A stretch of 64,000 nt of DNA, taken from the NCBI RefSeq assembly GCF_009193255.1, contig NZ_WACG01000001.1, positions 1,116,001 to 1,180,000 of the forward strand. The letters run 5' to 3'. The position numbers were made by a program, and so were the translations under genes. Below are positions 4,785 to 33,235 of this stretch, one piece after another. Source of the DNA: Arthrobacter koreensis (GTDB lineage: Bacteria > Actinomycetota > Actinomycetes > Actinomycetales > Micrococcaceae). The first letter of the stretch is position 1. Each line of letters starts with the position of its first letter. The notes beneath the pieces were generated by a model. The model did not search any database. It saw nothing but the letters and a program-made list of their open reading frames with translations, and was not told the DNA's origin.

Positions 4785-6127
4785 TCCCTGCCGGGAGGCA
4801 CCCTGCGGGGCGCCGCGGGACTGGGCTCCGGCGCTTTCGGCACTACCTGCAGGGCCGGCCGGCGTTCCCTGCGCCGGAAGCGGTAGAGCTCCCGGGACGC
4901 GGTGCTTCCCGCACCCACCACAGCGCCCGCGCCCGCCAGGGATGCGCGGAGCGATGGGTCTGCGCTGCCGTCCGCAACCTCGGCTCCCTCCAGATAGACG
5001 GGCAGTTTGTGGGCCGGGCCCAGTCCGCTGTCTCCAGCCACCGGGGCGTCGCCGGTGAGGGTCAGGGTCACGCGGTTAAATGCGTCGGGGTTGGACGTGC
5101 CGTCCGCTCCCGGCACCCAGTCCTGCGCATGTTCAAGGTGCAGGGCCTGGACCTCCCGCGGGATCGCGGCATCACCGGCCGGGGCACCCGCGGTCAGGAC
5201 GTAACGGACATCCAGCCCCTCCGTTTCCCGCAGGTAGCCGGCCGTGTTGGCAGCATGGATGCCGCCCTGGCTGTAGCCCACGAGGATCACGGAGTCTCCC
5301 GCTTCCGCTTTGGCCTGCCGCAGTGCCTCTGCCACGGCCGCAGCGACAAACCGGCTTTCTGCTGCCCGGCCCTCGGCGTTGCCGTAGTTGTCGAACGGGT
5401 TGTCCCCCGCGGCCCCTGAACCCGGCTGCGTTCCCGGGATTGTCACCACGAAAACCTGCCCCGGGCCTGCGCTTCCGTCCGTTGTTTCCAGGCGCAGCAC
5501 CTCCACCACACCGGGGTCATCCTCCCGCAGCAGCACGGCGCTCCGCTCCAGCAGTCCAGCTGCGGTTCCGGAAACCTGGACCGTTTCGGCCGTGCCGTCC
5601 GCCGCCCGGACCCGCTCCACCTCGATTTCCCGCAGGGCGCTCCGCCCGCCCAGCATCCCTGCCAGCGCCAGGAGTGCGGGAGTGTCCACGAGCCGCAGCG
5701 GCAGGGACTCCACCCAGCGCAGCTTCGGAAATCCGCCGGGGCCGGCATCCAGGAACGCGAGTCCCGCGGGCAGCAGCCCGGGCAGCCCGCCAAGGCGTTC
5801 GGCACGCCCCTCCGCATCCCGGTAGTTGGCTGCCGCAGTCCGCAGCCCGGAGGCCGCTTCCTCGGCTGCCTGAATGCACGCGCGCAGCAGGAAGACAGCA
5901 CGGTCAAGTTCCACCCTGGCTGTTTCGGCTGCGGAGGCAGGCTGCGTCCGGTTCCAGGCAGCCTCCTCCCCACAGACCCGCTGCAGGCCGGCGCCAATGT
6001 CCCGCAAGGTTCCGGCGATGGCCTCAAGGCGCCCGGCGCGGATCTCCAGCGCGTCGAACTCCACGAGGATGCTGTTCTGCCCGCCCCGGACCTGGTACGC
6101 CGGCGGCAGCGGACACGTGCCGCTCAT
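4781..6127 (-). CDS. WXG-associated alpha/beta-hydrolase (esterase-like)
   Basis: The product has about 448 residues. The first 120 or so are helical and Ala/Arg/Glu-rich, resembling WXG100-type coiled regions. The rest holds an alpha/beta-hydrolase fold with the nucleophile elbow VILVGYSQGGIHAAN near residue 280. Candidate acid and histidine residues lie in HAQDWVPGAD and GPAHKLPVY. No signal peptide is seen. The ATG at 6127 overlaps the upstream small gene by ATGA and was chosen over an in-frame GTG at 6136. The pairing with a small helical protein suggests a type VII secretion-like (ESX) cargo pair or a paired toxin-like enzyme. The substrate is unknown. Confidence 0.72.
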   Translation of the reverse strand: MSGTCPLPPAYQVRGGQNSILVEFDALEIRAGRLEAIAGTLRDIGAGLQRVCGEEAAWNRTQPASAAETARVELDRAVFLLRACIQAAEEAASGLRTAAANYRDAEGRAERLGGLPGLLPAGLAFLDAGPGGFPKLRWVESLPLRLVDTPALLALAGMLGGRSALREIEVERVRAADGTAETVQVSGTAAGLLERSAVLLREDDPGVVEVLRLETTDGSAGPGQVFVVTIPGTQPGSGAAGDNPFDNYGNAEGRAAESRFVAAAVAEALRQAKAEAGDSVILVGYSQGGIHAANTAGYLRETEGLDVRYVLTAGAPAGDAAIPREVQALHLEHAQDWVPGADGTSNPDAFNRVTLTLTGDAPVAGDSGLGPAHKLPVYLEGAEVADGSADPSLRASLAGAGAVVGAGSTASRELYRFRRRERRPALQVVPKAPEPSPAAPRRVPPGRD

Positions 6128-29858: not shown

Positions 29859-30119
29859 GAAGGTGCTCCTTTAGGGGCTGTTCTTTGGGCCAACCGGCGT
29901 TAACGGCGTTTGGCGGGCAGTTCGGCGTGCCCACGGGGCACAGCGGCGCTGCCGCCAGTTCAAGGCTAGCCGCCGATTAGTCTCCACCGCCAACTGGGAG
30001 CGCCTCCCACCCTTGGCGGCCATGGCCCGGGATGCAAGGATTGGCCGGACCGCGGACCGCTGCGAACCCGTTTGCCGAACAGGCACCCGGCAGCGCGGTC
30101 CCTGCCCCGAGGGGGTTCC

Positions 30120-30503
30120 GTGCTGGTCGCTGCCGCAATTTTCACCTTGGTTTCCGCCGCCGTCCACTTCTACTTCTTTGTGCTGGAGTCCCTCCGCTGG
30201 AACGTCCCGGAAACCATGGGCGTGTACGGAATCACATCCTCCGTTGACGCGGAGACCACCCAGCCGCTGGCCTACACGCAGGGTTTCTACAATCTGTTCC
30301 TTGGCGTGGGGGCGGTACTGGGAGTGCTGCTGCTGGGGGTGAGCAGTCCCGTAGCCGGCATGACCCTGATCAGCTTCTCCACGGCCTGCATGGTGCTGGC
30401 CTCGGTGGTGCTGCTGGCCAGCAGGTGGCCGCTTGCCCGGATCGCGCTCATCCGGGGCATTCCGGCGCTGCTCGCCCTGGTGCTGGCCCTTATGGGTTCC
30501 TGA
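30120..30503 (+). CDS. DUF1304-like small membrane protein
   Basis: The product has about 127 residues and four membrane helices. It shows the family segments LVSAAVHFYFFVLESLRW and QGFYNLFLGVGAVLGVLLLG. The GTG at 30120 follows GAGGGGG at five bases; an ATG at 30072 would add a hydrophilic 16-residue extension and is less likely. Function is unknown. Its end overlaps the 3' end of the convergent alkA gene by 14 bases. The 260 bp upstream (29859-30119) show no other gene, only a short GGGAG/CTCCC hairpin at 29996-30008. Confidence 0.8.
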   Translation: MLVAAAIFTLVSAAVHFYFFVLESLRWNVPETMGVYGITSSVDAETTQPLAYTQGFYNLFLGVGAVLGVLLLGVSSPVAGMTLISFSTACMVLASVVLLASRWPLARIALIRGIPALLALVLALMGS

Positions 30504-31446
30504 CCTTTGCCGATGGTCCGCTGGACGGCCGTGATGCGGGGGCGTCATACGCCGCGGCGGTCCAGAGATGGAACAGGGCGTAGGCACGCCACGGCCGCCA
30601 CGGTTCCGCCAGGGCCTCGGCTTCCCTCGGAGAGTCGACACCGAGCGCCCGGCGCAGCACCAGGTCCCCGGGCACGAACGCATCCCGGTCCCCCGCGGCG
30701 CGCACCGCCAGGTAATCCACCGTCCAGGGGCCGATTCCGGGCAGGGCGAGGAGTTCGGCACGGGTGCCGGCGCCGGCGCCTGCCAGATCCAGCCCGCCGG
30801 CCGCTGCTTCTGCCAGCGCCTGGATGGTCCGTGCCCGGGAACCGGTGATCCTCACGGCAGCCTGCAGCTCGTCCGCGCTGGCCCCGGCCAGGCGCTGCGG
30901 CGACGGAAAGAGCCAGAAACCGCCGGGCTCCCGGGTGCCGAATTCAGCGACGAGCCGGGACCCGAAGGTCCGTGCCGCGGCCAGCGAAACCTGCTGTCCC
31001 AGCACGGTCAGCACGGCGGTTTCCCACGGGTCAACGCTGCCGGGGATGCGAAGTCCCGGCCGGGCCCCGACCAGCGGAGCCAGGAGCGGGAACCCTGAGA
31101 GGAAATGGTCGACGGCGGCGGCCGGGGCATCCAGGTCCAACCAGGTGCGCAGCCGGGCGAGCACTGCGGTGTCGTCCGCCGGGGTCCCTCCGGCTAACCG
31201 GACCGCCACGCTGCCCGGAGCCCCGAAGCGGACCTCGGCCAGCACCGCGCTTTGCGGTGCCGGACTTCCAGGCGAAGGACCCACGGGTGCCTGCAGCAAC
31301 CGGGTGACCGTCGCGGCCGCGCCGTCGAACTGCACGGATTCAAGGCCGGGCACGGCGTGGGCGGCGAGGCTTCGGACCAGCGGAATCCAGGGGAACGGCT
31401 CCGCTACCGGGATGCGGTGGGTCCTCTCCCCGGGCAGGCCGGTCAC
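30490..31446 (-). CDS. alkA: AlkA-type DNA-3-methyladenine glycosylase II
   Basis: The product has about 318 residues. An N-terminal AlkA_N-like domain (FPWIPLVRSLAAHAVPGLES) is followed by the helix-hairpin-helix glycosylase domain: PWETAVLTVLGQQVSLAAAR, then the hairpin LLALPGIGPWTVDYLAVRAA and the catalytic aspartate region DAFVPGDLVLRRALG. It removes alkylated purines such as 3-methyladenine from DNA. The GTG at 31446 overlaps the alkB stop (GTGA). The much longer upstream open frame is antisense-like text overlapping alkB and was discarded. It is the fourth gene of the alkylation-repair operon. Confidence 0.9.
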   Translation of the reverse strand: MTGLPGERTHRIPVAEPFPWIPLVRSLAAHAVPGLESVQFDGAAATVTRLLQAPVGPSPGSPAPQSAVLAEVRFGAPGSVAVRLAGGTPADDTAVLARLRTWLDLDAPAAAVDHFLSGFPLLAPLVGARPGLRIPGSVDPWETAVLTVLGQQVSLAAARTFGSRLVAEFGTREPGGFWLFPSPQRLAGASADELQAAVRITGSRARTIQALAEAAAGGLDLAGAGAGTRAELLALPGIGPWTVDYLAVRAAGDRDAFVPGDLVLRRALGVDSPREAEALAEPWRPWRAYALFHLWTAAAYDAPASRPSSGPSAKVRNP

Positions 31447-32129
31447 TCGAGCCCGGTCATGCGCAGGGTGATGTTGATCCGCCCGGAGTCGAGTCCGGTC
31501 TCCGGGTCGGCGGTGCCGGGCAGGGTCTTGGGCACCCCGTGGTAGGCGAAACGGGAAGGTCCGCCGAAGACGAACAGGTCCCCGGAGACCAGTTCCACGT
31601 CGGTGTAGGGCTTGGTGCGGGTCTGTGTATTCCCGAACCGGAATATGCACGTGTCTCCGATGCTGATGGAGACCACGGGTGCGCTGGACCGCTCATCCTT
31701 GTCCTGATGCATCCCCATGTGTGCGCCGTGCGCGTAGAAGTTGATCAGCGCCGTGTCCGGGGTGTAATCCTCCGGCGCCATGATGTCCGGTGCGTAGCCA
31801 GCCTCCCCCTCGGAGAAATACGCGGCGCGCAGGGCGTCGCGGCCCAGTTCAACCAACCAGCCGGGGACCTCGGCAACCCGTCCGCCACCGGCGTCGTCGG
31901 CTGTCCGCGTGTACTTGTACGGCTGCCAATGCCAGCCGAGGCAGACGGTCTGCACGGACATCCGGTGCCCGCCGGGCAGCACAGCGGAGCGCATGGGGAC
32001 AGGCCCCACTGCCCAGGCCCGGCAGGCTTCGACAAGTTCGCGCTGGCGGGAGGGTTCCAGCCAGCCGGGCACGTGGACGGCCCCCGCCGAGGGTGTGGAG
32101 CGTTCGCGGGGGAACAGCTGGCCGGTCAT
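31443..32129 (-). CDS. alkB: AlkB-type alpha-ketoglutarate-dependent DNA dealkylase
   Basis: The product has about 228 residues. Iron ligands are visible as the HxD in HMGMHQDKDERSSAPVVSIS and the distal His in RFAYHGVPK. The 2-oxoglutarate-binding arginine region is GRINITLRMTG. The metal-proximal SIGDTCIFRFGNTQTRTKPY is typical of E. coli AlkB relatives. It oxidatively removes methyl groups from 1-methyladenine and 3-methylcytosine. The ATG overlaps the ogt stop by ATGA and the TGA overlaps the alkA start, so it is embedded in the coupled operon. Confidence 0.93.
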   Translation of the reverse strand: MTGQLFPRERSTPSAGAVHVPGWLEPSRQRELVEACRAWAVGPVPMRSAVLPGGHRMSVQTVCLGWHWQPYKYTRTADDAGGGRVAEVPGWLVELGRDALRAAYFSEGEAGYAPDIMAPEDYTPDTALINFYAHGAHMGMHQDKDERSSAPVVSISIGDTCIFRFGNTQTRTKPYTDVELVSGDLFVFGGPSRFAYHGVPKTLPGTADPETGLDSGRINITLRMTGLE

Positions 32130-32725
32130 GCTGCAGCCTCCATTGCCAGGAGGGCGGTTTTGGCTTCGGTGCCGCCCAGGTAGTTGCCGATCTTGCCATC
32201 GGAGCGCACCACACGGTGGCACGGAACCACCACCGGCAGCGGATTCCGGGCGCAGGCGGTGCCCGCCGCGCGGACGGCCCCGGGGTTTCCCGCGAGGGCA
32301 GCGAGTGCGGCATAGCTGGCAGTCGAGCCGTAGCCAATCTCCGGCAGGTGTTCGACGACGATGCGCCGGAACCCGGTGGCCAGGCGGAAGTCGAGCGGCA
32401 GGTTGAACTCCCTGCGGGTCCCGGCGAAATACTCCTCCAGCTGGCGGACCGGCTCGGCAAGGCGCTCCGGAGCTTCCAGGATCCGTGGACTGACGCGGAG
32501 CGCCAGCTGCGCCAGCACGGCGTCGTGCCCTTCGATGCCGAAACCGACCCGCACCAGCCCGGCAGGAGTGGCGGCGAGGAGCAGCTCCCCCACGGGTGAG
32601 GGCATCACGGTGTAGGCGACGTCGAGCAGGTCCTGCTCCTGCGCCGCGCTGGACAGCCTCGCGTGCAGGCGGGCCAGCGTGACATCTTCACCGGCGCTGA
32701 GCATGTCCAGGGTGTCCGGGGTCAT
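32126..32725 (-). CDS. ogt: Methylated-DNA--protein-cysteine S-methyltransferase
   Basis: The product has 199 residues. The acceptor-cysteine motif is PLPVVVPCHRVVRSDG followed by KIGNYLGGTEAKTALL. It transfers the methyl group from O6-methylguanine onto its own cysteine and is used up in the process. The Ada regulatory N-terminus (zinc cysteines and AraC helices) is absent. Instead there is a roughly 36-residue leader (DTLDMLSAGEDVTLARLHAR and following) ahead of the transferase domain, which could contact the co-encoded sigma factor. The gene overlaps both neighbours by four bases. Confidence 0.94.
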   Translation of the reverse strand: MTPDTLDMLSAGEDVTLARLHARLSSAAQEQDLLDVAYTVMPSPVGELLLAATPAGLVRVGFGIEGHDAVLAQLALRVSPRILEAPERLAEPVRQLEEYFAGTRREFNLPLDFRLATGFRRIVVEHLPEIGYGSTASYAALAALAGNPGAVRAAGTACARNPLPVVVPCHRVVRSDGKIGNYLGGTEAKTALLAMEAAA

Positions 32726-33201
32726 CGCAGATCCTCCGCTTCCAGTGTTCGCAGTTTCTTCATGCCGTCCGCCGCTGACCGCCGGCAGGCGGCCTCCGTG
32801 CTGCCGAGAAGAACGGCAACCTCCGCGAAGGGCAGCCCGGCGAGGTGGTGGTAGGCCAGGGTTTCGCGCTGGCGCCGCGGGAGGTTCCGGAGCGCCGCCC
32901 AGAGGCCGTCATGTTCGCCGGGGCGTGCAGTCTCCGGTCCGGGCCGCTCCGGCAGCTCGGGGATCGGGACCGGACGGCGCGCAGCTGCCCGGGTCACGTC
33001 AATCGCCTTGCGTTTGGCGATCGTCACCAGCCAGGCCTGCACATTCGCACCGGGTGCCAGGGCTGGGTAGGCCCGCAGCGCCGCGAGGAACGTCTCCGAC
33101 CACGCGTCCTCGGCCTCGTCCGGCCCCAGGACAGCGCGGCAGACGCGCAGCACCACGGCTCCGTGTTCCCTGACGATCGCTTCGAACGGTTTCACTTCCA
33201 C
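32722..33201 (-). CDS. ECF-type RNA polymerase sigma factor (alkylation operon)
   Basis: The product has 159 residues. Region 2 spans about residues 8-80 (FEAIVREHGAVVLRVCRAVL; WSETFLAALRAY; VQAWLVTIAKRKAIDVTRAA). Region 4 is at about 100-150 (LPRRQRETLAYHHLAGLPFA with the EVAVLLGSTEAACRRSAADG helix-turn-helix). No region 3 or accessory domain is present. The GTG at 33201 lies immediately after an ECF-like -10, so translation is probably leaderless. It heads the ogt-alkB-alkA genes and most likely directs their transcription. No anti-sigma gene is adjacent. Confidence 0.88.
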   Translation of the reverse strand: MEVKPFEAIVREHGAVVLRVCRAVLGPDEAEDAWSETFLAALRAYPALAPGANVQAWLVTIAKRKAIDVTRAAARRPVPIPELPERPGPETARPGEHDGLWAALRNLPRRQRETLAYHHLAGLPFAEVAVLLGSTEAACRRSAADGMKKLRTLEAEDLR

Positions 33202-33209
33202 ATACTGTA

Positions 33210-33235
33210 GACGCGCGGCGGGCCAGGTTTGTGAG
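33210..33235 (-). promoter_or_regulatory. Predicted ECF-type autopromoter of the alkylation operon
   Basis: On the minus strand CTCACA (33230-33235) and CGTC (33210-33213) are separated by 16 bp. This resembles the TGTCACA/CGTC-type promoters of some ECF sigma groups. The predicted start falls at about 33201-33203, on the GTG itself, consistent with a leaderless mRNA. It fits autoregulation, but is only a pattern match. Confidence 0.4.

Follow-up and report, generated by a model that had tools for sequence, protein, structure and literature searches.

How does an actinobacterium register alkylation damage to its DNA when the protein that performs this task in the textbook is missing? In its classic form, the adaptive response depends on Ada, a protein that many actinobacteria do not have. 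The question is raised by a four-gene operon on the minus strand of a 64,000-nucleotide stretch of the Arthrobacter koreensis genome (assembly GCF_009193255.1, contig NZ_WACG01000001.1, positions 1,116,001 to 1,180,000; hereafter the window, in whose numbering all positions are given). In this operon, a gene for an extracytoplasmic function (ECF) sigma factor is followed by ogt, alkB, and alkA. We propose that it constitutes a self-amplifying alkylation response that is run by an ECF122-like sigma factor in place of Ada and in which Ogt serves as both sensor and anti-sigma factor, an interpretation to which we assign about an even chance of being correct.

Domain searches settle the identity of all four genes without doubt. 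The sigma factor gene (32722–33201, GTG start at 33201; assigned with Pfam, NCBIfam, and a 40-row alignment) encodes a protein of 159 residues with the Sigma70_r2 and Sigma70_r4_2 domains and nothing else. It is followed by ogt for an O6-alkylguanine-DNA alkyltransferase with an N-terminal extension (32126–32725, ATG start; Methyltransf_1N and DNA_binding_1), alkB for a 2-oxoglutarate- and Fe(II)-dependent oxidative DNA demethylase (31443–32129, ATG start; 2OG-FeII_Oxy_2, PF13532, 4.6e-48), and alkA for 3-methyladenine DNA glycosylase II (30490–31446, GTG start; AlkA_N and HhH-GPD, PF06029 and PF00730). Each gene overlaps the next by 4 bp (ATGA, ATGA, and GTGA, respectively), just as a first-pass annotation of the bare sequence had described. 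The same annotation had noted the absence of an anti-sigma gene, and indeed none stands beside the operon, where Pfam identifies genes for an acyl-CoA dehydrogenase, an amidohydrolase, and a DUF1304 protein. Neither does Ogt itself carry a known anti-sigma domain (ZAS or other), given that Pfam shows the alkyltransferase domains only.

As far as can be tested, the sigma–Ogt pair belongs with ECF122, a known but uncharacterized group that is listed in a 2022 review following the Casas-Pastor 2021 classification as having no anti-sigma factor and an unknown mechanism (PMC8999054). According to the review, the conserved neighbors of ECF122 sigma factors in actinobacteria are 6-O-methylguanine DNA methyltransferases, and the named example comes from Cellulomonas sp. 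Root930 (PMC8999054; representative WP_057211282.1). For the Cellulomonas relatives L109 and L110, the sigma identity is 61%. The sigma factor of the window shares with this group the presence of regions 2 and 4 without any extra domain, the adjoining methyltransferase gene, and the lack of a nearby cognate anti-sigma gene of known type. The association of sigma factor and Ogt is thus not new because it had already been listed as ECF122, and the suggestion of the first-pass annotation that the operon represents a different wiring of the adaptive response has to be split accordingly: a sigma factor that directs itself plus repair genes is strongly supported by the comparative data below, while the pairing as such was on record. 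We found no experimental description of ECF122 in the literature that we searched. Where the review gives no mechanism, our analysis adds a promoter, a putative leaderless start, an Ogt helix specific to the sigma-linked enzymes, the exclusion of Ada, and the operon with alkB and alkA.

The sigma factor is widespread. Within the same order, 107 of 297 genomes gave matches at E <= 1e-12 and 98 of these at E <= 1e-16, both lower bounds because scoring was confined to the best candidates of each genome. The sigma factor was also found in 52 of 395 genomes of the class and in 78 of 397 genomes of the phylum. For comparative work, we assembled 234 non-redundant loci from Actinomycetota, of which L001–L020 were collected via Ogt and the rest via the sigma factor, and 80 named loci include Streptomyces, Mycobacterium, Rhodococcus, Nocardia, Amycolatopsis, and Cellulomonas. 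The first step of the gene order proposed as a test of the operon is widely shared, with ogt directly after the sigma gene in 230 of the 234 loci and three of the other four ending at a contig edge. As in the window, an overlap of exactly 4 nt joins the sigma stop to the ogt start in 190 of these 230 loci, and no natural sigma–Ogt fusion gene occurs among the 234. On a plasmid of Tsukamurella tyrosinosolvens (NZ_LR134464.1:105540-106097), an extended Ogt is annotated beside a sigma-70 factor, and the module can therefore sit on a plasmid. The sigma matches of G083, G125, G139, G153, G195, and G219 (loci L201–L203) are broken in two between regions 2 and 4, which suggests a long linker insert in one genus with large genomes. 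In Arthrobacter sp. Hiyo8 (L064:5513-6081), the match to the linked ogt is broken in two and has no intact PCHR motif in frame, as if the gene were frameshifted by a sequencing error or had become a pseudogene.

What would such a sigma factor transcribe? Upstream of its gene lies an ECF122-type promoter (33207–33235, minus strand) with a CTCACA -35 element (33235–33230), a 16-nt spacer, and a CGTCTAC -10 element (33213–33207). The first-pass annotation had picked out this promoter as CTCACA-N16-CGTC, and it is well conserved: in 184 of the 234 loci, the pattern CTCAC[AG]-N15-18-CGT[CT] appears at most 120 bp upstream of the sigma start, versus 0.9 expected from Markov shuffles, with a spacer of 16 in 183 of the 184. 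The predicted transcription start at the sigma GTG also gained comparative support. In the window, exactly 12 nt separate GTG 33201 from the C of CGTC (33213) above it. Of 183 aligned loci, 173 have an in-frame start codon 9–15 nt below this C, and in 127 this codon is a GTG at the very same distance as in the window. Because the start codon is conserved 12 nt below the promoter in most loci, the sigma mRNA is probably leaderless and starts at 33201 itself, as judged from this spacing. GTG 33195, which is in frame and opens the conserved MKPFE, was considered as an alternative sigma start and is less favored since the 12-nt promoter spacing favors 33201, although either codon may be the true start.

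Most loci without a site directly before the sigma gene have a second, canonical ogt ahead of it, and the site is then usually found either upstream of that gene's open frame or shortly after its beginning; some of the remaining loci carry it slightly further upstream. Elsewhere in the loci of relatives, a scan of the named loci placed the site mainly before sigma genes and canonical ogt genes. Conservation of the promoter before either the sigma gene or the adjoining canonical ogt thus strongly supports the view that the sigma factor autoregulates and directs repair genes. Near position 4884 of the Leucobacter locus L128, a canonical ogt divergent from the sigma gene has an ECF122-type site of its own on the opposite strand.

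The promoter survey also bears on the possibility that the signal is some broader stress rather than alkylation as such, with the repair genes as just one output. Consistent with this idea, the site is in rare cases also found before genes without a link to repair, i.e., a SnoaL-like gene in two unrelated actinobacteria (L093 and L111) and a short-chain dehydrogenase gene in L092. However, nearly all sites beyond those of sigma genes precede ogt, and another clear target, found in two Amycolatopsis loci (L082:7244-7954 and L094:6761-7471), is the PF09859 "damaged DNA" oxygenase. Furthermore, the genome of the window shows no other site with a plausible target gene, so that we regard a broader stress signal as quite improbable. 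A wider regulon in this genome was considered and rejected because its 15 strict promoter matches compare with 14 for a control pattern; the operon's own site, with a gene start at 12 nt, is alone credible. Further down from the PF09859 gene, both Amycolatopsis loci encode a canonical Ogt with the active-site motif ACHR instead of PCHR.

If the sigma factor replaces Ada, the two should rarely be found together. The first-pass annotation had noted the lack of an Ada N-terminus in the operon, and this extends to the entire, 100% complete genome, in which no Ada N-domain (Ada_Zn_binding, PF02805) was found while the E. coli and Bacillus subtilis controls were positive. Across the 297 genomes of the order, Ada has a strong match in 115 and the sigma factor at E <= 1e-16 in 98, with both present in 15 versus 37.9 expected (odds ratio 0.18; Fisher 3e-9, an optimistic value because the test ignores the relatedness of the genomes). 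This rarity of Ada alongside the sigma factor fits a functional replacement. Like the Ada response of E. coli (ada-alkB, alkA, aidB), the operon has an O6-methylguanine transferase, AlkB, and AlkA as outputs, positive autoregulation, and a suicide transferase as the probable sensor; it differs by lacking the N-terminal zinc/phosphotriester domain of Ada and by relying for its transcriptional output on an alternative sigma factor that has a promoter of its own. PafBC, which runs an SOS-independent DNA damage response in mycobacteria and thus likewise within Actinomycetota (PMC9380542), is a DNA-binding activator complex without a sigma/Ogt pair, and we found no relation between it and the operon of the window.

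The remaining question is how damage would be signaled to the sigma factor. The first 36 residues of Ogt (32618–32725, minus strand) form an extension that consists of a variable leader and an amphipathic helix and that we regard as the candidate sigma-binding element. Alignment of the extensions brought out a conserved helix in the linked Ogts with L17, L20, R23, L24, and A28 followed by a GLLDVAY junction; its face is L17-L20-L24-A28, and conservation is 93% for L24, 94% for A28, and 96% for D35. Linked Ogts have 28–81 residues (median 46; 42 in the window) ahead of the first-strand S/T-P-x-G motif, and AlphaFold predicts a helix at residues 20–36 of the L053 protein. The enzyme as such appears intact: the active-site Cys169 of the PCHR motif (32213–32224, minus strand) is present in 227 of 227 linked Ogts, with hardly any variation at the remaining active-site residues, on which grounds we expect linked Ogt to have remained a suicide alkyltransferase. 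By comparison, the canonical Ogts of these loci, many of which share the promoter, mostly begin about 8 residues before the motif and have no helix, although the start codons of some are ambiguous. Among the Ogts of genomes that do not encode the sigma factor, the closest ones, including that of L268 (63% identical to the window's Ogt), lack helix, sigma factor, and promoter together. Because canonical and nearly all unlinked Ogts are without the helix, it tracks sigma linkage and neither enzyme function nor the promoter, a linkage that we consider strongly supported.

Coevolution suggestively ties this helix to region 2 of the sigma factor. We analyzed 227 sigma–Ogt pairs (185 in the core clade; effective number ~141), numbering sigma residues so that the second GTG (33195) encodes residue 1. 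The top inter-protein pair in both mean-field (z 8.3) and pseudo-likelihood (z 8.1) analysis is sigma A13 with Ogt L17, whose coupling is as strong as that of the best intra-protein pairs; the sigma residue belongs to the first helix of region 2 and the Ogt residue to the N-terminal helix. Sigma E5 and Ogt H21 give a similar but weaker signal. When the Ogts were re-paired within 30 clades, the A13-L17 score fell from 0.298 to a mean of 0.008 (maximum 0.129). Mutual information had been tried as well, was dominated by phylogeny, and was dropped for the direct-coupling methods.

Taken with the near-exclusive occurrence of the extended Ogt in sigma-linked loci and the depletion of Ada, the coupling lends support to the proposal of the first-pass annotation that the extension is the missing regulator of the sigma factor, and we infer that Ogt binds the sigma factor. 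Several points limit this support, beyond the optimism of the Ada statistic. In 1 of 40 re-pairings, another pair reached 0.298, giving a family-wise p of ~0.05. Structure modeling yielded no confident complex: a single AlphaFold chain built from the natural in-frame sigma-stop-ogt pair of L053 (TGA read as a residue; 54 shallow unpaired rows) gave domains with a predicted local distance difference test (pLDDT) score of 88 and a predicted template modeling score of only 0.53, with the helix no better ordered (pLDDT ~75–80) than in Ogt alone (87), so that the model speaks neither for nor against binding. Structure searches matched the Ada C-terminal domain (Ada-C), Mycobacterium tuberculosis Ogt, and ECF sigma factors. 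L255 (G052) and L256 (G280) keep an extended Ogt with neither ECF122 sigma factor nor promoter nearby and are candidates for recent sigma loss. Finally, the helix could serve the stability of Ogt itself or its search along DNA.

The lack of a confident complex also suits an arrangement with purely transcriptional control, in which the self-amplification is set off by basal transcription, by read-through of the acyl-CoA dehydrogenase gene, or by another regulator, while Ogt is mere repair cargo with a helix of unrelated function. The acyl-CoA dehydrogenase gene lies upstream on the same strand and ends just ~50 bp above the sigma gene, and the promoter is autoregulated. Conversely, a loop without a brake would stay on, and the helix follows sigma linkage rather than Ogt function or the promoter; we therefore rate this arrangement as rather unlikely. 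At the other end of the operon, the DUF1304 membrane protein gene (30072–30503, plus strand) is convergent with alkA and shares 14 bp (30490–30503) with the 3' end of that gene.

We thus favor Ogt as the brake. In this scheme, the sigma factor would act at CTCAC[AG]-N16-CGTC to produce a leaderless mRNA of the operon to which it belongs and, in relatives, would also serve the canonical ogt and sometimes other alkylation-repair genes. Ogt, co-translated with the sigma factor, would be the sensor: its unmodified form would bind sigma region 2 through the N-terminal helix and keep the sigma factor inactive until repair irreversibly alkylates Cys169, whereupon Ogt would be changed or destabilized and the sigma factor set free. 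The sigma factor would be shut off again as soon as translation of this mRNA has yielded more new unmodified Ogt than there is damage. Systems of ECF sigma factors with soluble anti-sigma factors (RsrA/ChrR, NepR, and cytoplasmic MucA classes) share the sigma-then-partner order and translational coupling, and binding by a short helical element would be a probable further likeness, but here the partner is a predicted active DNA repair enzyme without a ZAS or other known anti-sigma domain.

The same comparative pattern and coupling would also be explained if Ogt were a positive partner, i.e., if alkylated Ogt bound the sigma factor via the helix to activate or stabilize it, much as methylated Ada activates transcription together with RNA polymerase in E. 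coli. Most ECF sigma factors with a dedicated co-translated partner are restrained by it as an anti-sigma factor, which speaks for a brake over a co-activator. While Ada sets a precedent for an alkylated repair protein as activator (PMC4437013), alkylated alkyltransferases are destabilized and broken down in vivo (PMC4605297). Such instability fits release more readily than activation and is the reason why alkylation could free a helix-bound sigma factor. We consequently deem a positive partner unlikely.

The brake reading can be taken one step further: a suicide repair enzyme would double as the anti-sigma factor, with one blocker lost per O6-alkylguanine and thus a stoichiometric count of lesions, in a system that replaces Ada across much of Actinomycetota. 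For this fuller version, our confidence falls somewhat short of even. If true, a switch made of a sigma factor plus Ogt would explain alkylation sensing in actinobacteria without Ada, and the uncharacterized ECF122 group would gain a signal. It would also be a rare instance of a DNA repair enzyme acting as an anti-sigma factor, may provide a new orthogonal sigma/promoter pair for engineering, and would amount to a new way of running the adaptive response.

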